From Clavelina lepadiformis (Eukaryota; Chordata; Ascidiacea; Aplousobranchia; Clavelinidae), in assembly GCF_947623445.1 (NCBI RefSeq), contig NC_135243.1, positions 8,062,501-8,126,500 on the forward strand: DNA of 64,000 bases, in the 5' to 3' direction. Shown in pieces: positions 25,050 through 59,581 of this stretch. Positions within the stretch are counted from its first letter, which is position 1. Every line of letters starts with the position of its first letter. Made by a program: the position numbers and the translations under genes. The notes under the pieces are model-generated. The model was given only the letters and a program-made list of their open reading frames with translations. It was not told the origin of the DNA and searched no databases.

Positions 25050-26306
25050 TTAGTTACTGATGACTGCAAAATTTATTCTGTTTCTTTGGAGTCGATTGAT
25101 CAAAGTTGTCTTGCAGAATGCTGCACCAGGTGGAAAAACACCTCCTTTTGGCGGTAGACACTCTGTTTCTTTGAGAATCACCAAAGCTGCTTGTACTAGG
25201 CATATAGGTGTGGCTATGTAACCAGGCTCTGGTGCCGATATGCGAACCGTCATCTTCTTGTCAGGTTTATCTTTTCTTCCTAGATCAGGATTACCATCAG
25301 AATAACCTTCTCCATACATGGTAAGGGTGAAGCTGGTTTCTTCCATCTGCTTTCTTGACGGCCCTTCGTGTGAACACCTACCACCCGTAAAGAACTTTGG
25401 ATGTTTCAGCAGCAGCGACCTACCCCAGGCACTTTTTGCAAGCATCATGAAAATGCTGCCGAATATGACCATTTTAATGACACTCCAAATGCTTCCAACA
25501 CAACTGTACATTGAATATTGGACTGGTGGTTCATCAAAGGTTTCATAGATAATCCGCTGTGAGCGTCTAACCACTGCTGCATCTGCACCAAGAAAGTGCA
25601 TTGCATAGCATCTCAAGGGAGAAGAATAATGAAACATGCCTTCTAGCTTCAGCTTTGGGCCCACCAGTGGCAATGGCTTAAAACCAAATGCTCTGCGGAT
25701 TTTCTTCAATGATGACACATCACTGATACCATACACAGCGCTTTCATACGTTGCAAAGTGCAAACCTGCACCACGTGGGCCAGACAGAATGTTGAGATAG
25801 CTTTTAATGCTATTCAACGTTCCAGGAAACTGCTGCTTAGTGAAAAGTGCACCCATGTCACTTGGTATGCTATCGAATCCACACGCTCCAACAATGTAAA
25901 CACCAGCTGCTTCTGCCATATCATTATACTTTAGCTGCATATTTTCCAGAAACTGCGGCTCACCCGAAATGTCCACATAATTTGCTTTAGCTTCTACGCA
26001 AGCCCGCACCACTTGTTCACCAAAAAACCTGTATGGTCCGACACAGTCCAAGACGATTTTAGCTCGTTTGCACATTACCAGTAATGACTGAAAGTCATTC
26101 ACATCAGCCATTATGATATCATTGGACAAATTTTCCAAACCGGTTTCTTGAAGTACTTGGATAAGCTTACTTCTGTTTCTTCCTGCAATCGTAAAACTCA
26201 CACTCTCTTCAGCAGAAATTCGCTTCACTTCTTCGACAACGAATTTTCCTGTGAAGCCAGTGGCTCCAAAGATGACCATGTCATAATCTTTTTGTTCGAA
26301 AGCCAT
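25050..26306 (-). CDS. SCCPDH: saccharopine dehydrogenase-like oxidoreductase (SCCPDH type), intronless
   Basis: The single-exon frame of 418 residues matches the usual length of SCCPDH (human 429). The N-terminal NAD(P)-binding Rossmann motif is IFGATGFTGKFVVEEV at about residues 12-27. Family landmarks include VLDCVGPYRFFGEQVV, YVDISGEP, GACGFDSIPSDMG and SGPRGAG. A hydrophobic segment at about residues 265-285 (VIKMVIFGSIFMMLAKSAW) fits the membrane or lipid-droplet association of SCCPDH. Despite the name, animal SCCPDH is not the lysine-pathway enzyme, and its substrate is not settled. The gene has no intron, unlike most neighbours, and lies 395 bp downstream of the BAG1-like gene on the same strand. 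Confidence 0.93.
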   Translation of the reverse strand: MAFEQKDYDMVIFGATGFTGKFVVEEVKRISAEESVSFTIAGRNRSKLIQVLQETGLENLSNDIIMADVNDFQSLLVMCKRAKIVLDCVGPYRFFGEQVVRACVEAKANYVDISGEPQFLENMQLKYNDMAEAAGVYIVGACGFDSIPSDMGALFTKQQFPGTLNSIKSYLNILSGPRGAGLHFATYESAVYGISDVSSLKKIRRAFGFKPLPLVGPKLKLEGMFHYSSPLRCYAMHFLGADAAVVRRSQRIIYETFDEPPVQYSMYSCVGSIWSVIKMVIFGSIFMMLAKSAWGRSLLLKHPKFFTGGRCSHEGPSRKQMEETSFTLTMYGEGYSDGNPDLGRKDKPDKKMTVRISAPEPGYIATPICLVQAALVILKETECLPPKGGVFPPGAAFCKTTLINRLQRNRINFAVISN

Positions 26307-26701
26307 TTAAATAGATGCAGTCAAAATCTATATTATTTTTAAGTAGATCTGTATTAAGTAGTGAAAAAAATTGTTTAGCTACAAAAAATGTTTGGACAAA
26401 ATGTTAAAAAGAAAGAAGTATTTAACGTGGTTATAGTACAAGCATCAAAAATGGTTCCGTAAATAAAACAATAGCTTACGCATAATTATAGCGTATATTT
26501 TTTTCTAAAATTCAAAACTATTCATTTTAAATAATCTAAGGAAATGCAAGAAACAAACATTTAACAAAAGCACTTGTTCTAGACAATTGTATTCACCATA
26601 CACGTATATTAACACTAAGCATGCATTGCCAAATGACAGAAATACATATATATATAGGGAAAGACATGAAATTATAAATACAGTGAAATCTGAAAATGTC
26701 T

Positions 26702-27265
26702 CTACTTCTGCTCATTGTCAATTAAGTGAAGAGCAAAATCACATTTATCCAAGTGTTTTTGTATTTTGTCAACAACAACTTTTCTTTTTATCCTGGCATC
26801 TTTGAAGTCAGAAACAACAGTCATAGAATCTATATTTTCAAGATGTTTCATTAATGAATGAGAATGAGCGAGTATTTCCTTCTCGATTTTTTGATATGCT
26901 TCGGCTTTATGTTTCTGATCCATGAATCCTTTCAAAATGCTATCAACATGTTTTTCGATATCTGCAATCAATTGACCGGTTTTGCTGACATCCCTTTCGA
27001 TGCTTTGAAATTTGTTCAATGCCTCCTCCTCATCTGGATTATAACGTTTCCCTACCACCATGATCTTGCTTCCGGATTTTATCCCAGATTCGGATAGGAG
27101 TTTGTCTGGATCTTTTGTCAATGTGACGCCTTTAAATATGAGTTTTTGACGATGCTCCGGGATTTCACTTTTTTCCTCTACAATGTGCATCAACTCCTGA
27201 ACAGTCGCATCCAGAGATGCTGTTACTTTGTGCCTTGTAGCTCCCACAGATATTGTCAGTTCCAT
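26702..27265 (-). CDS. BAG1: BAG1-like Hsp70 nucleotide-exchange co-chaperone, intronless
   Basis: The 187-residue single-exon frame begins MELTISVGATRHKV. Residues 1 to about 75 form a ubiquitin-like domain (VQELMHIVEEKSEIPEHRQKL, read in parts, and KLIFKGVTL). Residues about 95-180 form a helical BAG domain with QLIADIEKHVD and RKVVVDKIQKHLDKCD. This UBL-BAG order matches short BAG1 isoforms, which stimulate ADP release from Hsc70/Hsp70 and link it to the proteasome. No second exon is needed. No signal peptide is present, so it should be cytosolic or nuclear. Confidence 0.92.
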   Translation of the reverse strand: MELTISVGATRHKVTASLDATVQELMHIVEEKSEIPEHRQKLIFKGVTLTKDPDKLLSESGIKSGSKIMVVGKRYNPDEEEALNKFQSIERDVSKTGQLIADIEKHVDSILKGFMDQKHKAEAYQKIEKEILAHSHSLMKHLENIDSMTVVSDFKDARIKRKVVVDKIQKHLDKCDFALHLIDNEQK

Positions 27266-27452
27266 AATTACTTAATATAACACTTTGTCATGAAATATTT
27301 CTAAATGCGAATAGCCAAAAGGTATGCATTTTCACACTTCTGGTGCTGCTCAGTGAACAGATTGTTTCAGAATGAGCTTTGATTTTTTTTAATCTACCAC
27401 AAAATACTATGTTGCACCAACTATAAAACAAATCCACCCATATAGCAAATAC

Positions 27453-45389: not shown

Positions 45390-48300
45390 ATGTCGAAGCT
45401 ATATCCTGGAACGTCTCCGATTCAACAGCACGAAGGAGGTATGTACTGTAGTAGAGCAAATTTAGGCTGAACTGAAATTATTGTATATTGTGTGCGTGTC
45501 ACTGTGCAATTTGTGACCACAGCTAAATGCTTGGTCCGATGATCCTCGGATAATGGGCTATTGTAGTGCATGTTACGGTTACTTACGGATTGTATTGATA
45601 CTCTACGCTACGCTACGGTACTCTACGCTACGGTACTCTGCGCTACGGTCACCCGTTGTTATTTTCATTTTTAGTGGATTTCGACGATTCGCAGAGCGGA
45701 ACGTACCAGACGAAGAAGAATGCCCCAGTTCAAATGGAACTTAAGGTAGATGTCGATCAGCTGGGACCCTTCTCAAAAACGACTGATTGCATCAGTGGAG
45801 TGTTGACTCGAAAGTCCAAATCTATCTGGTAAGTTCATGCCATGAAGATACTGACCGCTGTTTGGGCTATCTGAAGTTTAGGAAACTTTTTCCGTGATTC
45901 GTTTAAAACTTGACTTTTTGTATGATATTGTGATAATTTTAAATGTTATTGGCAAAAATTCACTTTTTTGTTAAAATTTTTACCCATGCCTTCATCTTAA
46001 TGTCATTGTTGTAACGGAAAACGTCCAGGCTGGCCCTAATTCAGTGAGCTTTGGTTTAAAGAAAGAGCACGTTGTGATATGTGAAGAAATTTTTCCCTTA
46101 TCAATTGGCAGGCTTGTCCATGGGACATTTTTTTCTGTCCCATCCCATCCTATCCCATAGCAATTCATGCCTGTCCCATCCCATCCCATCCCATCCCATC
46201 CCATGGGATTCCCATCAAAATACAATTCAATAAATGTTATTAAATTTATGGAAATTTAAGTCTAATGTCTATTAGAATTGACTACATGTACAAAGAGAGA
46301 TACAAAACGACAAAATTTATTGACTTTGTTAACTTTAAAGTTCAGAAAAGTTGTCTATCTATGACAATTTATTATCATTGGTACTCATATTCCGAGTCAT
46401 GGGAATTGCAATTCGTTCTGTTCCATCCCATCCCATCCCATGGGACATTTCCCATGGGATTCCCGTGGGAATCCCATTCCCATGGACAAGCCTGTCAATT
46501 GGACCACCACGGCATGTAGAAAACTAAAGGCCCGAGTTACCTGGAAGAACCGACCAAAAACGTTTCTCTCGTTTTATTGTACAAATTTGTTATTCGTCTG
46601 AAGTCGGCCAACTCATGCATTCGCTATATATGGGCATGGTATGATAATATTTATCCTCGGACTGAGCGAAGTATTTACACGACTTAAACCAGGCGATGAC
46701 TTTTCATCGCTCGAGCCCCGGTTACCGAGCTGGCTTTTGTGCAAGTTCGATTGTCACACAGTTTTTTGTTTTTAGATTTTGTATATCGTATAGCCCGAAT
46801 TTGAAACTGTTCACCAGGTTCACTGGGCATTAAAATTCAACCATTACGTTCATTAAGACGAAGGTAATCGTCGTTAGTGCCTTGCCGAGGGTATTACAAA
46901 GGTCGAGCCATTGGCAATCCAACACGGGTAGCATTATTGTGAGCCTAACGCCCTAACTACTCGGCTGCTAAGCCGACAAAGTGCATGTTCGTGTTCTGTA
47001 TAAGTGTATATATTCTTCAAATCGCGCATTCGTCAAACCTATGAGATACTCCAGTTTCCCAACAAACTGTAAGTAGAGGCAAACAAAGTTACAATCAGTT
47101 TTCTTTATAAAATGTCTGATATGGTGTTAGGTCTGGGAATGCGTCAAAAGCTTACTTCAGGTCTTACTTTGGCTCCGGCGTGCAATACGATGGCCAAAAA
47201 ATCCACGCAGTCATTTACGTGTTGCTAAGCGACGGGGGAAAACGAGATGGCCAAGTAGAAATAAGCGTGAAGTCGTCACGTTCGGGTTTGGTGTGTGACG
47301 TCAAGTTTAAAATCGAATCGTCCACTGTTACAATCAACGGTGCGGAACGGATCAGTCAGGTGAAACCCGCCTCAGCAAGTACAATATTGTTCTTAATTAC
47401 TTTGCGAAATAAATAAGTTCCCTTTGTTTCACTGAAGTACAGTATTTTGGTGATGTCACGTTGGACATTGACTTTGTGGAGAAAGTCATTTGGCCTGTGA
47501 TCAGATTGGAGAATTATACTGGAACAAATGCAAGCATGAAATCAAGAGAACTGGATCTCTTTTCAGTGTTTAAAGATGCAGGCTTAAAGCTGTACTTCGT
47601 CGACGAAAACAGCCAAAAGGTTAGAACAAAATGTTTAACATCTGAAAAGACTCTTATAGCTATATCAACAAGCCAGAGTTCACAATAAAAAAATTGTAAC
47701 TGGGTAACTGCTCATATTGCGCATTTTGGTGCATTTTATTCTATTACCATAACAAAAAAATCTTCAAAGTTATCTCCCGAAATAGGATTTTGTAGAATTG
47801 TACTTTCGACAATGGATATTCCGTTTGTTTAATATGACCACATATTGATCAAAAGATATTGCAGTATTTATATTAAAGTGGGTTATACTTAAATCTTTAA
47901 GGTTAGAATTTGCTCTTAATGCTTCAAAATAAATGGGTGTACATTAAATAATGCAAAGAGACATTCTGTTCAGATCTGACAGCACATTTTTTTCCAGGTC
48001 GAAGATCCCACTCCAGACACAAGGTGGACAAAAGCGGACATGTATGCGGTGATGAAGGATTACTTCGACGGCTACAAGGGCAAAGGCTTTAATATCTGGT
48101 GTCTCTTGGCACAAAGGCCTCCAGATTCAAGATACATGGGATATTCTTTTGACCAAGATGGGAAAAAAGGATTTGGTTTATTTACTGGGTATATAGGAGA
48201 CTTGTGTTTACTTGACATGCTTTAGTGCCTATTCAATGCATCTTGTACAATTCTTATCTTATTATCATCGGTCAGTAGAGTTATCGACAAAGCATTACCA

Positions 48301-51300
48301 GATTGTTCTACAAGTGAAAAAATTTTATTGATACTTTTTCCGCAGACACACGTCGTTCAACGGGATGGACAGTGATGACCCCAAGGTAAAGGCAACTGCA
48401 AACAGGCGGTTTCTCCACTACATGGTGCACGAGTGTGGTCATTGTCTGGGACTGATTCATCCATTTGAAGATGGTTAGAAACATATGTTAGGGTATATGA
48501 AGGTATAGCGCAGGGGTTTCTCAGTCGGGGACCAATTTTACGTTCTACCGTTGTCGAGCTATACCGAGCTATAGTATAGTAGTATGGGAAGATGAGGCAA
48601 AGCGGGACACAAGTCTTTCATGTTTTCGTGCTTGTTGTGCAACACTAGCTAAGCGAAGGCTAGTGCACACGCAGTAGTGAAGTAAAAAGTGTTTTGCAAT
48701 CAACAATCGACATTTTTTTATTGATGAGCAGGGGGCCACGTATTTTGAGGGTCACTGTAAGGGGGCCACGAGCTATGAAAGCTTGAGAACCACTTGTATA
48801 GCGTATATAGGCAAAAGTATTTATTTTACTGCAAGGATATTTTACCTCGTAAAGTAACTCCCATAGTCATCAATTTGCTTTTGAAACCAGCTTGTTTAAT
48901 AGTAATAGAACAAAAGATATTTCTGGGTCATAGGGAACTCGGATTCTCTATCCTGGATGAATTATGCTTGGAAGTATGACTCACTCCACGGACCTGGAAC
49001 CTTTTACGACAATTTCGAATATTCTTTTTCTGACGACGAGCTAATAACTCTACGTCATCAACCGAATAAGGTTTCTCATTTGTGGCTAGAATTTTATTGA
49101 AAAAAAAAAATTAAGACTGAATGCAGTTATCAGTTATAACTTATGTCGTTTAAGGAATTCGTAAATACGTACGAAGTGGAATCTGGGGAGAAATTCGATG
49201 TACTCGATGCACCGAAAGCAACACCACCTGATCTTGGAGAGTCCGATGATGATGATGAAAACGATGAAGAAGTCCATAGAGGCGGGAGGCCAAAGTCAAA
49301 CAGGAAGATCTCGTTCAAGATCAAAGTCAGAAGTCAGCCCTATTTTAAAGTAAGCTTTATTTTCAATGCATTTTTGTAATATCTTCAACATAATCCTCCT
49401 AATCGATGTTAGCAGGTTGTAGCATATATACGTAGGGTACAATGCTCGATATATTTTGTTCGACAGGGTGATACAGTCGAGTTTGAAGCTATCTTATGCA
49501 ACTCTGGAAGATTGCCTTGCAGAATAGATCCGGATTTGAGCTTGGGTGGCGGGAATATTTCCGTTTACATTACCGATCCGCTTGGCGGTGTGCAGGTGCA
49601 GTACGTACTGTTTTACTAAAACTAGAGGTTTGTGTCTCAAAAGTTGGAGATATCGAAATTTCGATCTAATGATTGATGTTCATTTTTTCTTTGTGAGACA
49701 CTCTACAAGGAACGATTATTAGAATGGAAAATACCAAATACGTTAAAAAGATTTAAAACTGGTTATGCTTCACATGAATATTCAAATACACATACATAGA
49801 TGAGTCAAGTGTTTTACAAACGTTTGAAAGCCTGTTATATATATTCACTTCTATTCTCGTTTCGTAGGTGGCTAAGCCGTTTGTTCAAGAAATTGATTCC
49901 CCAACACGTCGCTACCTGACTCTGGGAAAAGCAGGAAGTCGTGAGAATTCTGACGTGTACAGAGAGATTGTTCCGTTGATCCAATCCAACCGAGGAACTA
50001 TGTTTAGAACTTCAGGAAGTTACCAAATAAACGCGGTATACGAAGGCAGTGGAATGACAATTCCTTCAGGTAAGGACAAGCACTCGCCGGACTTAAAGAC
50101 GTGCGTTTTTTGTGAAGTTTTATTAGATCCAAAAATCTCTAAAATTTAAGGCAAAACATTTTACAACTGGACGTAGTGAAGGTCACCAACAAATCAAGGA
50201 AAGCTAAATTAAAAACATGTTCATAAATTACTTCTTTTTCAAACATACATGTACGCAATTGTAGAAGTTGGCTGAGATTTTTAACATTCCGTCCAATATT
50301 TAGAGTAATGGAAACCTAAAACTCTACGGAGTCTATATATGCGAGTGTATACTACATAGTGCATACTATGCCACAAACTACATAAAATGCTGAAAATTTA
50401 TTAATTGTTTTAATCAGATACGGCAGAAGTAACAATAGAGGACGATCGAGAAGACGACGCATCTAAGGACGAGGTGACTGGATCAGAGCTCCTCTATATA
50501 CCATTTACGTTTGTTCACACATTACTTTAAAAGTTTTGACTAAGTGAAAATTAATGCCGTGGTTGCGTTGCTTATTGCTGAATGAGACTAATAATATGGT
50601 ACGATTACCTATTGGATTGATAAAATTTCACCCAGGGTTAACTTAACCCACGGATAAGATTACCTGTCGTAAAACTTGTCTTTTATCCATCTCTTATGTG
50701 CACCGGCATAGGCTCGAATATCGATATCAGTCGACGGATCGCTGTCGGACTCGCAAAAACAAGTCATGGATTTCTGGATGAGTCTGATGAAGAAACCCAT
50801 CCAAGCAAAGCTGAAAAGGATTCAAATGATAACCCAGCTCCTCCGAGGGATCAACAATGGAGGAGTGAAAGTAACAGGAAAGAAAGATGCTCTTCGAAGT
50901 CGGAAGAAGCATCTAAAAATTGAGAGAAGTCAACCTTTGAGATCAGCAAAAGATTCGATCTTGGATACCACAGACATTGCCCAATACTTCAAGAGGAATG
51001 TGAGCGAAACAAAATGTATAGCAGTAAATTTCGTGACTGGTTAAAACTGTTAAAGAAATCCTACTCGACATGGCTATGCAATAAGTTTAATCGACAGCAA
51101 AATTTAATGTTGCAATTTTCACTGTACTTCTACCAATCTACCGTAAACTTACTGGAAATCGTTTTAAAGCAAAGTGATCTCAATTCATTTCTGCCTATGG
51201 TGAAGCAGTAAGAAATTCCTTTGTTTATGCAGTATGGTGATGATCTTGTGGATGATCTTCACTATGTCAACTTTGTTCTCACAAGAGGAAAGATCCTTTG

Positions 51301-54300
51301 CGGGATGAAAGATTTTAACCAAGCTGATGTAGAATATAATCAACTGGTTGCAGATTTGCTGTCAGGGAGCGCAGATTTCGACTTCATGAAAAGAACAGCC
51401 AACAAATGGGAAAGCATCCGAAACCCGTCAGGTTTGTGGACGACCTTATTTTAGAGAGGTAGGCTTTTTACAATAATATATCTTGGATTTACTTTCTAAT
51501 TCCCTGTACATTGAGTCGTTTATTGTGTGTTATTGCGTTTACAGTAAAAGAAATATTTTGTTACATATCTTACCACACAGCTTCGTCAGAAGCTTTGAGT
51601 GGAAATTACCAGGAGAGAGTGGAAAAGTTAATTGATTGGATGCCCGAAGAAGAAATCGTGAACGAAGAAGACAAGTCGGGCCTTGGCCTTGGCCGGTAAG
51701 TCAAATACATGCTGCAATTTAAAAATTCAAGTTATTAGTAAATTGCATCCGTGTTGATGATAGTTTGCCAACGTCAGCTATGAGTGGTTGCCTTTGGAAA
51801 CGTTGTTTCATATGCTTTTGTTACTACAGCGTTTGGTAAACGTAAGAAAGTTAGTTTCCAACATGTTTGAAACAATCATTAAACAAGTCATTTTATAGCT
51901 TTACCATTTCATTTACCATACCATTTACTATTCTTCACATTTAATCTACACAGCTGTTTGTAAACGGGTTTTCCCAGCAAACGTTCCTTGTTCATGTCAT
52001 TTAACCATTCCAACTTCCAAAAATGTCTTATCGTATATGCTCTGCTAAGTTAACCTACAGGCGCAATTGTGGTATTACAGTAGCACATATCACAATTTTG
52101 CAACAGTTTTCAAATAACTACAGGCATGCGACGAATTATTTTATTATCTGTTCACCAGACATATAAATTTTACAGGCCTTTCAACAATTTCGACGACAGA
52201 CATCTCCATTTGGCCTTTAAATTTGCAGAAGACCTTGAAAAGATGGAGGAAAATACAGATGACATTGACGCAGTCCTCGATTACGCCGAAGGAGTCATGA
52301 AAAGTCTAGAAGTCAATACGGGAGTTTGTAAGTGGGCTTTGGAGACGTTTATCGTTCACAGCAAACTGGCAAAGAAGCATCGTATCAGGTGAGAGGCGAT
52401 GAATCGAAAGCCTATATAGGCTACTTGTACTTGGCTTAATCTACGCTGGCTTTGCTTCTGCTTGTTTCATTGTATAACCACCAAAAGAAAAGGTTTGCTT
52501 AATTGGATTTAATTGTTCTCGTAAAGTTAAACTCTTTAATTTGACTTTTTAACAATCTGCTTAACGAAAACAGATACCCGGACCCACCCAAGCGTGACCC
52601 TAAAATGACGTCAATGGCCGCGATCGTAGAAACGAAGAGAGTCGGGAAGCCGGAGGAATCGTGGATGCACTACTGGAGATGCGACGCTGACTTTAACTAT
52701 CATCATCGGTATGATTTGAGAAGTTCTACAGAGCTATATACCGTTAGCCTACAAACTTTTACTAATCCGGTGTAGCGTAATACGTAATTGATCTTTCTAC
52801 GGGACAAAGGTTGTTTTTTTTCAAACAATTTCACTTTTTTTATGTTAAATTTCACTTTACAGTTACGCTATTATCAGAACGTAAATCAACATTAATTTAG
52901 CCTATGCTGTTCCCTGTATCTCGTTAGCTAACTCTTACCTTGCATGGCATAACCGTTAATAACTGAAGATATGTAAGTCTGTCTTGTTGGACATTTTTAC
53001 CCAGCATCACCTATAAGTTAAGAATAAAAAAATCCATCGGTGAAGTAGTCATCTACTCCTGCGATACAACTGCAATCGATTAACAGTCGCGTTTATTTTT
53101 GTGCGCCAGGCACTGGCATGCTGTTTACCGCGGAGTGAGATCCTTCGATTTAAAGGAAAGGAACGCTCGGCAAGGAGAGCTCTTTGGTTACATGCACACA
53201 CAGATGCTGGCAAGATATGACGCAGATAGAGAATCCTGGGGCCTGGATCCGGTTGCTGTATGTTGGAGTTTGATACTTTCCTGAAACGACTCTTTTATAC
53301 GTCTATTAATAGTGTGGAACTACTTTTTCTTGTCTAAAGCAACTTCGACAGTCCAACGTATAGCTGCAAAAGAAATTTAGTCACAGCCCAATTCAGTCTT
53401 CCGTACTCATAACCAAATCCTTATAAAGTCAAAATTTTTACAAACAATAATTTCGTTACAAGATTTAGCAATCTACACAGTTAACTTGTATTAGACATTG
53501 TTTGTCTTTCAGCCGTATGCATTTTCTGAAAAAGAGCCCCACGGATTTGACGCTGGATGGGAGTTTCATGAGGCTCGTTCTCATCGTGAGTTTGCACCAC
53601 GTCCTTCTGGCGAAACTTGGTCGTCCAATTTTAAAAACAACCTTGAGGATTGTGAAAATGCTATTCGGCACTATTTTAAAATCGGAGAATTGCCAACAAG
53701 AAGTGGTGGAAAGTGAGTTCGACAAATCTTGATCAAGCAGATGAATAATAAACTGTGATAAACGTCAGAAATATAGCTCAAAGTTGCACAAAATTTACAA
53801 ACCTAACGTCTTAAACGATCCAAGTTATTTTTGCTTTAATTACAAATATGTCAAAGCATTTTTTTATTTTATTTTAGTCTTAAAATCGATACGAACGTTG
53901 CCGGTCACATCATTGAAGCGACGAGTGACGAATGGGGTCACATATTTGGCAGTTTTCATAATGAGGGTCACATGGCCTTTTGCTACACCAAAAACATACC
54001 AAGAGGCGTAAATTATAATAGACGTTTCATTCATATTTTTATGAGTTCTAATAAGTGACGTAATAATTTTATAAAGTGCTAAATTATAGACAAGACAACG
54101 TTTAACATCTGGCTAAGATTTTCTCAGCTGCAATAATTTAAGGATTTGGTTTTGGGAAGTCTGTTGCGGTGAAAACGACTTTGATATTTGCTTCAGAAAA
54201 CAACATACATGGGATCGTCGCTGACTGCTGTCCGTGATCCAATCTTTTTCCGTTGGCATAAGAGAGTAGACAACTTATATCAAGAATTTAATGACACAAT

Positions 54301-57108
54301 CAAGCAAGAAGTAAGCGAGGATGCCCCCGGAGTTGTCATCCACCCGGAGGACATCGTTATTCTTCCTGGAACGGAGGCTCCGGACGGATTTCATGAGTAC
54401 GAAATAGGCTAAGCAGTTTGCAAATATTTATAGTGTGAAGTTTTGGTGTATCTATAAATATAAGACTTTGTCATGAAGATTTTATTCTGTAGGCTATTTT
54501 GTTGAAAGACATTTTATTATTTAAGTCAATAATTGCCTATGCTTAAGAACAAAGCTAATTAAAGTCGTGCGATGTCTCCTTTGCAGATTCAAAGGTTCAG
54601 GCTGGAAAAATAAAAATTTCAAAAGCGGTCGGATTCAAACTTATCTCCGGAAACCTACCCTTGCTTTTGAATGGGACAACAAGCTAGACCACGAACCTTT
54701 CAGCTACCACATTCGGATTGCAAGAAAGCCCGGGGTGGAAGGTATATAAATTTTTGAAAAATTTTATTTTGCAAAAGTGAATACAACTATAGACCCGCTG
54801 GTAGCGTCACAGCAGAAATCATCGCACAAATAGCTTTATCAACAAAGGCTGACAATGCTAGCTATATTCGTACTTTTTGATCTTTCGTTTCTGTTTTAAA
54901 TTAAATTTAATGAATTTAGACCTACAGACGTTTTAATGTAAAGTTAAGTAGTTTTACTTTAAACAAAGTAAAACTTAATTGTTTATTTACATTCCGACAT
55001 CTGATTTTTAGGCGTACTGCCCTTAACTGTAAGGGTGTTTATCTGCCAAGAAAGACATGTGAACAATAGGAGGTCTTGGATTGAAATGGACAAGTTTGTC
55101 CATGTGTAAGTGTTTTAATAAGAAATTCTTTTTCTATACCAGAGAACTTACCAGCATGTTGGTTTTACCTGCATTATCTCCTTCATAAAAACTATCCAGT
55201 AATAATTATCCAATTCTGACCTTTAATTTTGTCCAGGATGCAAGAAAATGAAACACATTCAGTTTTGAAACGTCTGGACAAGGAAAGTTCGGTAATCAAG
55301 CGTATGAAAGAGGATGCAATAAAGAGCAAAGAGACGCAGTTTGTCCCAACTGTCCCAGGAAATTGCGAATGCGGTTGGCCATACTCTATGTTGCTTCCTC
55401 GCGGAGTCAAGGTTTGTTATAACGTTGCGACTAAAGCAGTTATTCAGTTAATTGTACCTGATAGGATATTGTACAAAGTAAATCATATAGTAATTTTTGA
55501 CATGTTTTTTTTTTATCGCAGATCGATTTTAAGCTATAACCTGTAAAATTTTAAGGTTTAATATATATAATAATAGTATGTAAAAATTAAAAATAAATAG
55601 TTAACCCTATAGAGTTGTTGTTATGTATGTTTTTAAAATTGTACTGTAAAATCTTGTGAGCTACAATTTGTCAGAATATATTGCAACAGGGACACGACAT
55701 GAAATATGTTGCAGGGCGGAGAAAAATGGGTACTTGGCGTGTTTATCAGTGACAACAAACACGACGGGATTAAACTAACCACCTCCTGCGGGAGCATGAG
55801 TTACTGTGGAACCAGAGATCTGGACTACCCTGACAGCAGGACCATGGGTTATCCATTTTCAATGCCTATTTGCATTGGAAAGAATTTGGTATGTTTCAAA
55901 ACCCATGGGTTATAAATTTAGTTATAGTTGGCTATATGAATTAAAAGTTAAAACTTTTCATAGTAATATACGTTAAAAAGTTACTGCATTTGGCTAGAAT
56001 GCACTTCTGATACCAGTTAGAATAACAACATGACATTAAAATGAAAGAAGTTGGCAAAACGTGTTTCACTCTGAGAGCAATTCGTTCAAGATGGTTCTCT
56101 ATATAGCACTATCAAGCAGTTTACTAAAACGAAGACAACTCCTTGCAGGTAAAAATAACAGAAGCCGCCGAAAAGCTCACTAATTTCAGTCTATCTCCTT
56201 TCCAAATCAACAACGATTTCGAAATGGAAAAGCTGCCAATTGACGTTCAATCTCCGTCACAAAATAACATGGTTTGGGCGCCCTACAGGATGGTCGGTTC
56301 AACAGGCATTGGCATATACAAGTAAGAGCAGTCTTCGGGAATCGGCAAATGATGGTTTAATTTTTGCAACCCTATAGAAACGTCGAGTTCTTCTCTGCCT
56401 TATATTGGTATATGCAGACGAACAAAACGATACTGTAGGTCTTACACGTCAGGTTAAAGAAAATCTAACCCGAAAACAGTTTTTATAAAAAAAAAAACAT
56501 TTTAAAAAAATAAACAGCAAATATTTGGAACAAGTATTAGTGTTCATTTATGTTTATGCAGTAAAAGCAGATTGACCGGTCGCTTTCGAGTTCGATTGGA
56601 TGACAAAGATTTCCGAAAAATGTCGTCTTCTCGGATTCGTATTCGATTTGCTGGACGTCCTGACTCTTCTTACAACATGAGCGACGTCAGAATAGGTCTG
56701 AGAAAGGGCAACACAATCGACATCGATACACGTTGCAACTTACCGGTGACTTTCAACACTGCAAATGGAGTAGTTGTCACCAAAGATGGTGTGACAAGCG
56801 ACGAGATATTTCTTCCGTGAGAAACGCTTCTTCCTGTTGTTTTGTCAATGCTTCTCCCTACAAAGTGTAACGATAATTTTCTAACACACAGAGTCAAGAC
56901 AGGCAAGGGCAATGATTACTTCGTCACTTTTACCCTGAAAAGCCCGGGATGCTACGTTCATTCACCTGCAAAAAAAGCAACCGTCAGCATCTATATTCCA
57001 ATGTCTGCAGCGAAGGAAGCGACGAATCAGGATCAGTGGACAACGCTGAAGCCTTTAATTGGCAAAAGATACCGCAGTCTCTACTGCGTTCAATGTGTTG
57101 TAGAATAA
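45390..57108 (+). CDS. metzincin-like zinc protease fused to arthropod-type phenoloxidase
   Basis: Twenty-seven exons join in one frame to 1,505 residues: 45390-45438, 45675-45828, 47131-47359, 47443-47619, 47998-48188, 48346-48473, 48934-49070, 49155-49349, 49467-49595, 49868-50069, 50418-50473, 50712-50999, 51233-51431, 51581-51695, 52176-52388, 52574-52708, 53110-53257, 53513-53712, 53878-54007, 54197-54396, 54587-54741, 55012-55105, 55237-55411, 55715-55888, 56149-56321, 56562-56816, 56892-57108. The first half has HECGHCLGLIH (zinc ligands H295, H299, H305; catalytic E296) and a Met-turn-like SWMNY (M318), then an Ig-like beta domain (about 385-540). The second half is a hemocyanin-superfamily phenoloxidase: CuA H865, H869, H895; CuB H1009, H1013, H1046; C-terminal domain CECGWP and YPDSRTMGYPF. 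It should oxidise phenols to quinones. No signal peptide is seen, as in arthropod proPO. Two separate genes remain possible. Confidence 0.85.
45600..45652. repeat. CTACG/GGTACT simple repeat
   Basis: Short iterations of CTACGCTACGGTACT lie in the first intron of the protease-phenoloxidase gene, just before its second exon. It is a minor satellite-like tract. Confidence 0.75.
46109..46494. mobile_element. non-autonomous hAT-type element with TCCCA arrays (386 bp)
   Basis: The perfect 8-bp duplication TCAATTGG lies at 46101-46108 and 46495-46502. The ends are CAGGCTTGTCCATGGGA and TCCCATGGACAAGCCTG. Both arms carry tandem TCCCA pentamers. It sits in intron 2 of the protease-phenoloxidase gene. 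Confidence 0.9.
46625..46985 (-). repeat. tRNA-derived SINE, copy 4
   Basis: On the minus strand it reads a tRNA-like head (GGCTTAGCAGCCGAGTAGTT), the body TGTAATACCCTCGGCAAGGC and ACTAACGACG, and the GATGAAAAGTCATCGCC block. The 3' block is CAGTCCGAGGATAAATATTA with tail TCATACCATG. It lies in intron 2 of the protease-phenoloxidase gene, 130 bp from the hAT element. Confidence 0.65.
48511..48795. mobile_element. non-autonomous hAT-type element (285 bp)
   Basis: The perfect 8-bp duplication GTATAGCG lies at 48503-48510 and 48796-48803. The ends are CAGGGGTTTCTCAG and CTTGAGAACCACTT, and GGGGGCCACG repeats inside. It is inserted in the intron between the HEXXH exon and the Met-turn exon of the protease-phenoloxidase gene. 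Confidence 0.85.
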
Positions 57109-58619: not shown

Positions 58620-58910
58620 CGTCAGTTCTGTTGCACAACGGTATGAAGTGGCTTCATTTATAATATGCGCACCTGATTCGATTCCCAGATGGGCTAACGT
58701 TGTAATACCCTGGACCAGGGTATGAAAGGCGCTTGCTCCTGTTCAGTGGTCTTTCAAAACAGTTTAAAAATCGGGCAATACAATATGCAAAAAATATTGA
58801 ATAAAAGAATATGTGTGTGACAATCGGAACTGCAAAAAGACAAGCTCTGTAGCCTGCACCGGGGCTCGAGCGATGAGGAACAATTTCTCAGCCCAAGCAT
58901 TTGTGATACC
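58620..58910 (+). repeat. tRNA-derived SINE, copy 5
   Basis: The head contains GATTCGATTCCCAGATGGGC (B-box-like). The body has TTGTAATACCCTGGACCAGG, then GCTTGCTCCTGTTCAGTGG, then GGGCTCGAGCGATGAGGAAC. The 3' tail passes directly into the 10-bp satellite. Confidence 0.65.
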
Positions 58911-59380
58911 ATATCATACCATATCATACCATATCATACCATATCATACCATATCATACCATATCATACCATATCATACCATATCATACCATATCATACC
59001 ATATCATACCATATCATACCATATCATACCATATCATACCATATCATACCATATCATACCATATCATACCATATCATACCATATCATACCATATCATACC
59101 ATATCATACCATATCATACCATATCATACCATATCATACCATATCATACCATATCATACCATATCATACCATATCATACCATATCATACCATATCATACC
59201 ATATCATACCATATCATACCATATCATACCATATCATACCATATCATACCATATCATACCATATCATACCATATCATACCATATCATACCATATCATACC
59301 ATATCATACCATATCATACCATATCATACCATATCATACCATATCATACCATATCATACCATATCATACCATATCATACC
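58911..59380. repeat. decamer satellite, 47 perfect copies of ATATCATACC
   Basis: The unit repeats without a visible change for 470 bp, flanked by GTGATACC on the left and ATGTTGTATC on the right. It keeps a 203-codon frame open only because the 30-bp period contains no stop. The unit resembles the 3' tails of the SINE family (TATCATACCATG in copy 4), and copy 5 abuts it. Confidence 0.97.
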
Positions 59381-59581
59381 ATGTTGTATCATTTCGTTGC
59401 AAGATTGAGGAAATTCGTACATGACATTGTAGAGTTTTAGATAAAATCATATTGCAACGCAAAATCAACGTTGTTTCGAACAAACTCTTAAGTATTTAGT
59501 TGCTTAAAATAGAACCTTTGTTACATCAAGAAACGCAATAATGTTTTCCTAAAGATTAAATGGCTTTTAATGTAAGTCATC

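Follow-up and report, generated by a model that had tools for sequence, protein, structure and literature searches.

Phenoloxidase is a main effector in the inflammatory response of ascidians. The usual picture of its activation is modelled on the serine-protease cascade of arthropods, in which prophenoloxidase is released from hemocytes, not secreted, is activated by separate serine proteases, and is held inactive and cut on its N-terminal side. Arthropod prophenoloxidase and hemocyanin (3hhs, 3ixv) carry no protease in their chains. Here we describe a locus in a 64,000-nucleotide stretch of the genome of the ascidian Clavelina lepadiformis (hereafter the window), at window positions 45390-57108 on the forward strand, which is predicted to encode a metzincin-like protease and a hemocyanin-superfamily phenoloxidase in one chain. 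Among described ascidian systems, prophenoloxidase is located in hemocyte granules (available part of PMC5465252), and two arthropod-type phenoloxidase sequences, CinPO1 and CinPO2, have been reported in Ciona (available part of PMC9395347). The latter are like the genes described here in being hemocyanin-superfamily ascidian oxidases, two there and two here, and in the available part of that source no protease part is mentioned for them. Tuphoxin, an ascidian alpha-type tyrosinase, is similar as a blood-cell phenol oxidase relative that carries additional domains, TSP1 being one, but it is an alpha-tyrosinase outside the hemocyanin superfamily, and the same part of PMC9395347 does not mention a protease. 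The sequence-only reading of this stretch that preceded our analysis knew of no described protein in which a protease and a phenoloxidase are joined, and the literature searched, in which subscription papers were incompletely covered, gave no such description; the layout was also absent from the available parts of PMC9395347, PMC5465252, PMC7401272 and PMC11310991. The parts are of known or recognisable kinds, whilst their combination is, as far as the searches reach, undescribed.

When its exons were rebuilt from the DNA, the locus resolved into 27 exons encoding 1517 aa plus a stop codon in an unbroken frame, with GT...AG boundaries at 26 of 26 introns and every join in phase. This agrees with the sequence-only reading, which had proposed a 27-exon frame ending at the stop at 57108. 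An in-frame TGA lies just 5' of the ATG at 45390, and the predicted chain has a mass of 172.6 kDa. We consider it likely that the locus is one gene for a single polypeptide chain of approximately 173 kDa, and the gene structure points to one mRNA. The features of the locus are as follows, in window coordinates unless a contig is named.

C4:8062501-8126500, the window, in a genome of 209 Mb in 95 contigs
45390..45438, + strand, exon 1, with the start codon and without a hydrophobic signal-peptide-like stretch
45675..47619, + strand, exons 2-4, N-terminal domain, aa 17-203, with an LKVDVD...SG motif common to prokaryotic relatives
47998..49070, + strand, exons 5-7, metzincin-like catalytic domain, aa 204-355
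48428..48460, + strand, zinc-binding motif HECGHCLGLIH (HEXXHXXGXXH), aa 295-305
48951..48965, + strand, SWMNY Met-turn, aa 316-320
49155..50473, + strand, exons 8-11, acidic linker and immunoglobulin (Ig)-like domain
50712..51431, + strand, exons 12-13, TPR-like C-terminal tail of the protease protein, well supported for exon 13, less so for exon 12
51233-51695, + strand, exons 13-14
51432..51544, + strand, intron 13, 113 bp, phase 1, splitting a Val codon (G|TA), without ATG, the likely seam
51545..52708, + strand, exons 14-16, aa 712-877, the hemocyanin-type oxidase from its N-terminal side up to a point inside the first copper motif
52574..54396, + strand, exons 16-20, Hemocyanin_M copper domain with HHRHWH, GYMH, HNEGH and RWH
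54587..55888, + strand, exons 21-24, Hemocyanin_C Ig-like domain
56149..57108, + strand, exons 25-27, C-terminal domain of approximately 215 aa and stop codon; its counterpart in the second copy is C6:1841757-1842669

A second copy of the gene is present on another contig. Genome searches with Hemocyanin_M and Hemocyanin_C followed by reading of C6:1815001-1850000 located a paralogue at C6:1832827-1842669 with 28 exons and 1531 aa, in which protease exons are followed by oxidase exons in the same order as in the window gene. The splice sites of both models were chosen by hand, and the first two exons of the C6 model, which has one additional 5' intron, are tentative, with little similarity behind them. 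At C6 exon 4 one candidate acceptor was rejected as it breaks the frame, and an AG eight bases upstream restores both the frame and the 177-bp length found in both copies. Intron phase is identical in all 26 introns common to the two copies, including the phase-1 intron 13, and 11 of the 27 paired exons have exactly equal length; both copies have a 56-bp exon 11, and exon 12 is 288 bp in the window versus 285 bp in C6. Overall identity between the copies is approximately 40% (579/1456 aligned residues, summed over aligned segments); it is 41% both over the first 549 residues minus exon 1 and across exons 12-24, and the last domain shows 33%. The zinc and copper motifs are intact in both. As the paralogue on another contig repeats the arrangement, chance origin of the frame is ruled out. 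Own-genome Pfam searches of the 209 Mb placed all three scored Hemocyanin_M matches and the single scored Hemocyanin_C match within the two genes. Protein searches of the genome with the protease half (window query; 15/15 scored matches) and the oxidase half (C6 query; 27/27) likewise led only to these genes, and no standalone relative of either half was found among the scored matches, a result that is strong but not absolute since these searches score best candidates only. Most simply, the fusion would predate the duplication that gave rise to the two copies. The earlier proposal of a single-frame fusion thus gains support from the second copy, which has diverged but keeps the exon phases, and from the C6 oxidase, which on its own has no usable start codon (see below).

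Residues 1-711 (exons 1-13) likely constitute a complete prokaryote-type metzincin-like protease protein. In both ascidian copies an HEXXHXXGXXH zinc motif is followed by a Met-turn, and the zinc ligands together with the Met and Asn of the Met-turn are invariant across a nine-sequence alignment (A5) of the two ascidian copies and seven bacterial or archaeal loci (L009-L014, L046), the invariant residues being reported as H295, E296, G298, H299, H305, M318 and N319. The window protease matches proteins of Motilibacter deserti and of a Geodermatophilaceae bacterium at 24% identity (E 2e-21 and 1e-18, values relative to candidate stretches only), and the Geodermatophilaceae protein matches six records of a plasmid collection, from Nonomuraea (an 11.8-Mb record), Embleya, Arthrobacter, Rhizobium leguminosarum, Methylobacterium and the archaeon Halocatena. 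The prokaryotic relatives are collinear with the ascidian protein, with an N-domain followed by a catalytic and an Ig-like domain and, for the majority, by a TPR-like tail, such that the alignment spans exons 2-13. This order of regions was found in L009-L016 and L046, although in L012 and L013 most of the tail is absent or diverged; L047-L049 were excluded from the alignments and the open reading frames (ORFs) L016_3662 and L015_4503 were removed as wrong picks. Alike in their collinear domains, HEXXH...H and Met-turn, these proteins differ from the ascidian copies in the zinc motif, which is HEXXHXXNXXH in 7/7 of the aligned prokaryotic sequences but has G at that position in 2/2 ascidian copies, and in that no oxidase is attached to any of them.

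A Pfam search of window residues 1-549 returned no family above cut-off (M66 at 0.045 and M10 at 0.061 lay below it), no Pfam or NCBIfam cut-off was reached by L009 or L010, and one of the nine members of A5 matched Reprolysin_4 at 1.2e-4 in Pfam, with the cut-off not shown. The A5 profile gave weak matches in the PDB to MMP-14 (0.005), serralysin (0.012) and ulilysin (0.015), extending little beyond the zinc-motif region, and an AlphaFold model of one bacterial relative, with a mean confidence score (pLDDT) of 34.3, was left unused. The bacterial family is rare, as four of 396 genomes of the phylum of genome G002 match, the query's own included and one of the four being marginal. As far as the literature searches reach the protease family is itself undescribed, and the protease half would define an unnamed family common to bacteria, an archaeon and an animal. 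It looks intact and would be active as a protease. No consistent neighbour of the bacterial protease gene was seen among the loci inspected; on the Rhizobium leguminosarum plasmid pRL9b4 (L011:718-8232) the protease relative adjoins a protein with BNR and ferritin-like (PF12902) domains, with a LodA_N protein nearby.

Residues 712-1517 (exons 14-27), 806 aa in the window copy and 809 aa in C6, are predicted to form a phenoloxidase of the hemocyanin superfamily that carries an additional C-terminal domain. In the window copy Hemocyanin_M was matched at 3e-30 (105.8 bits, cut-off 20.8) and Hemocyanin_C at 4.6e-21 (75.7 bits, cut-off 26.4), and Hemocyanin_N was not reported by Pfam at E <= 1. The copper motifs of both copies align with those of hemocyanin 3ixv, are conserved relative to the arthropod proteins 3hhs and 3ixv, and contain six copper-binding histidines in two sites; in the profile alignment 3ixv can be followed back as far as column 212 of A3, approximately the start of exon 15. 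Both enzymes had been described as intact from the sequence, and HECGHCLGLIH, SWMNY and HHRHWH/GYMH/HNEGH/RWH are indeed all present. A two-sequence oxidase profile matched hemocyanin 3ixv (3.5e-61) and the phenoloxidase subunit 3hhs_B (1.5e-59) in the PDB, and the fungal protein AsqI more weakly. In a single-sequence search with the 196-residue stretch from exon 14 on it was AsqI that ranked first, and the term arthropod-type, under which the oxidase had been introduced, is therefore to be read as hemocyanin superfamily: arthropod hemocyanins and prophenoloxidases are the best solved relatives by profile, but the superfamily includes AsqI and bacterial members. The C-terminal domain of approximately 215 aa had no Pfam match in the window copy, and its lone PDB row (E 0.99) was taken as chance; the domain may resemble the accessory beta-sandwich of some GDSL-type lipases.

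No bacterial protein with the same fusion was seen, and Hemocyanin_M exceeded its cut-off in 0/396 genomes of the phylum of G002, with one sub-threshold match. In a search of nine genomes or records, which did not extend to L014, Hemocyanin_M exceeded its cut-off in two, which are the records of the bacterial hemocyanin-type genes; of the remaining seven, five were single plasmids. Two pattern scans revealed no viral relatives. A bacterial protein with Hemocyanin_M (6e-35) and Hemocyanin_C (5e-27) is encoded on the Rhizobium indicum plasmid pPR13E04 (L017:8111-13611) and in L018, where the annotated gene is shorter; this hemocyanin-type gene follows genes for an S8 subtilase and an MBL-fold hydrolase in operon-like order, a case of a phenoloxidase-like gene beside a protease.

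The crossing between the two enzymes had been placed at the exon 11|12 join. The frame is kept across intron 11 (238 bp in the window), as had been stated, but this join does not lead from one enzyme to the other, exons 11-13 aligning with prokaryotic one-piece proteases. The alignment pairs exon 11 with the final strand of the prokaryotic Ig-like domain, with few identical residues, and most bacterial relatives continue past that domain into a tail with weak TPR signals. A hidden Markov model (HMM) of this tail, built from seven loci (L009-L011, L014-L016, L046), matched residues 650-712 of the C6 protein (domain E 2.2e-5) and 628-689 of the window protein (0.0039) in a two-sequence database, and the real scores were reached in 0/1000 shuffles of each copy. 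Profile-profile comparison of exons 12-13 with the tail scored 31.2, a value reached in 0/100 column shuffles (best 17.7). When the tail HMM was run against a background of 1347 ORFs of at least 60 aa from the window and the fetched loci minus the protease family, to which the two exon 12-13 peptides were added, the eight top rows listed were all exon 12-13 peptides or ORFs holding exon 13 (the two peptides and two genomic ORFs, each ORF in three overlapping loci). Exons 12-13 therefore most likely belong to the protease protein, which places exon 11|12 inside it, with exon 12 assigned to the tail by collinearity. The tail-bearing prokaryotic proteins extend approximately 10-45 residues beyond the last aligned block, whose end coincides with that of exon 13, and since they stop near this point the seam between protease and oxidase is most likely intron 13 (exon 13|14), which splits a codon in both copies (G|TA in the window, G|AG in C6). 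Within intron 11 of the window copy AATAAA and ATTAAA were absent and one GATAAA was present, eight polyadenylation-signal variants having been scanned; among the 53 introns of the two genes its donor ranked 20 in the window and 38 in C6, and its acceptor 48 and 38, ordinary to weak splice sites.

Overall we lean towards a one-chain protease-phenoloxidase fusion with self-processing. The fusion protein would lack a signal peptide and be stored in hemocytes; as in arthropod prophenoloxidase, no hydrophobic N-terminus was found in either copy, the highest mean Kyte-Doolittle value in the window copy being -0.08 (11 aa, within the first 40 aa), although a signal-peptide predictor was not used. 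The protease part would precede the oxidase on its N-terminal side, the region where arthropod zymogens are held inactive and cut, and may cut its own chain or a neighbouring identical chain in the region of the seam, by which an oxidase of approximately 93 kDa would be released. Self-processing, whether in cis or between chains, would be the simplest role to explain survival of the fusion through duplication and approximately 60% divergence with intact motifs. Tethering without activation explains these survival facts equally, and taken by itself the self-processing role of the protease is put forward as a tentative possibility. Rather doubtful is the wider suggestion that this is a chordate immune zymogen with its own prokaryote-type activator, processed on hemocyte release, bypassing or supplementing the serine-protease cascade, and that the known Ciona phenoloxidases may be C-terminal halves of such proteins. 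Should the arthropod-type oxidases encoded by the two genes indeed form the C-terminal parts of such chains, annotation of ascidian phenoloxidase genes, antibodies and size assignments would need rechecking, and activation would be directly testable within one protein; the immune enzyme would then contain its own possible activator or partner.

Several observations weigh against this reading, the first of them bearing on the role of the protease. Activation of ascidian prophenoloxidase has been attributed to serine proteases and not to a metalloprotease (available part of PMC5465252), and no cleavage site was identified in the fused chain, none being shared at the seam of the two copies. These points would fit a fused protein that is real but whose protease is not the activator of the oxidase, having other targets such as the tunic matrix or microbial proteins, or serving as a scaffold by which both enzymes are kept at a wound. 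We regard this as quite possible, if somewhat short of an even chance. It is also in keeping with the prokaryotic relatives, which seem to work without a hemocyanin partner, Hemocyanin_M being absent from the two genomes and five plasmid records with the protease that were searched. The position of the protease on the N-terminal side of the oxidase, where arthropod zymogens are cut, does no more than hint at activation. The assignment of the seam is affected by the modest profile-profile probability for the tail (41%) and by the low identities between the copies in exon 11 (2/18) and exon 12 (18/95).

The remaining observations bear on whether one chain is made at all. If intron 13 is not spliced, the frame runs on beyond exon 13 for 7 codons in the window copy and for 6 in C6 before reaching a stop, so that a protease-only product is possible. 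It is conceivable, though unlikely, that both products exist, the full-length fusion and a protease-only isoform arising by intron 13 retention or polyadenylation, with their ratio regulating activity. The read-through ends are short in both diverged copies (...NPSGLWTTLF* and ...LSEPGKKAKL*) and intron 13 of C6 carries the variant signal TATAAA. A nearby in-frame stop is, however, ordinary, as 52/53 introns of both genes have one in the read-through frame, and intron 13 of the window copy contained none of the five polyadenylation-signal variants scanned.

The serious challenge to a single gene is a spliced-leader (SL) trans-spliced operon of two genes, in which the protease cistron would end in or before intron 13 and the oxidase would be trans-spliced at exon 14. 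It is taken seriously because the genome carries the Ciona spliced leader, with 1422 exact copies of the leader followed by GT (808 forward and 614 reverse) and 0 for the reversed control. The oxidase part is near in length to CinPO1 and CinPO2, which have 794 and 774 aa, and this could mean that a separate oxidase is made in Ciona; the CinPO proteins may be C-terminal parts of such chains or evidence of an oxidase made alone. In the window copy an in-frame Met (DWMPEEE) inside exon 14 could in principle serve as a start. In Ciona approximately one-fifth of genes lie in operons whose members abut, and pipelines often mispredict abutting genes as fusions (available part of PMC2760879). Against two cistrons, both copies lack an ATG in intron 13, and C6 exons 14-15 contain no complete in-frame ATG, the first being codon 111 at the exon 15/16 join, after three out-of-frame ATGs. 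The phase-1 codon split at the seam is present in both copies and a cistron boundary has no reason to keep phase, and intron 13 lacks AATAAA and ATTAAA in either copy, with the single TATAAA in C6 noted above. A boundary at intron 11 fares worse: in C6, where this intron is 72 bp, the frame stays open all the way from exon 11 to the end of exon 12. A separate oxidase start at the exon 12 Met (MDFWMS, with a good Kozak context) was considered and rejected, C6 having no Met there and an earlier ATG that is out of frame. The two-gene reading could still be saved by an alternative first exon that escaped notice, but it is judged improbable relative to a single fused chain. Finally, an assembly artefact or haplotype copy is ruled out by the location of the two genes on different contigs and their identity of only approximately 40%.

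Other features were observed in the window and elsewhere in the genome. Just 3' of the gene, window positions 58906-59382 are occupied by a perfect tandem array of the 10-mer ATACCATATC (47.7 copies, 100% matches), which yields three overlapping long open frames with no Pfam match at E 0.01. A large array of spliced-leader genes lies on C6 at approximately 12.14-12.23 Mb, with a 745-bp tandem spacing among the matches listed. On the reverse strand of the window (25053-27271) an ORF for a BAG1-like protein with ubiquitin and BAG domains (26705-27271) is followed by one for a saccharopine dehydrogenase-like protein (25053-26306), and this pair is a candidate SL operon.

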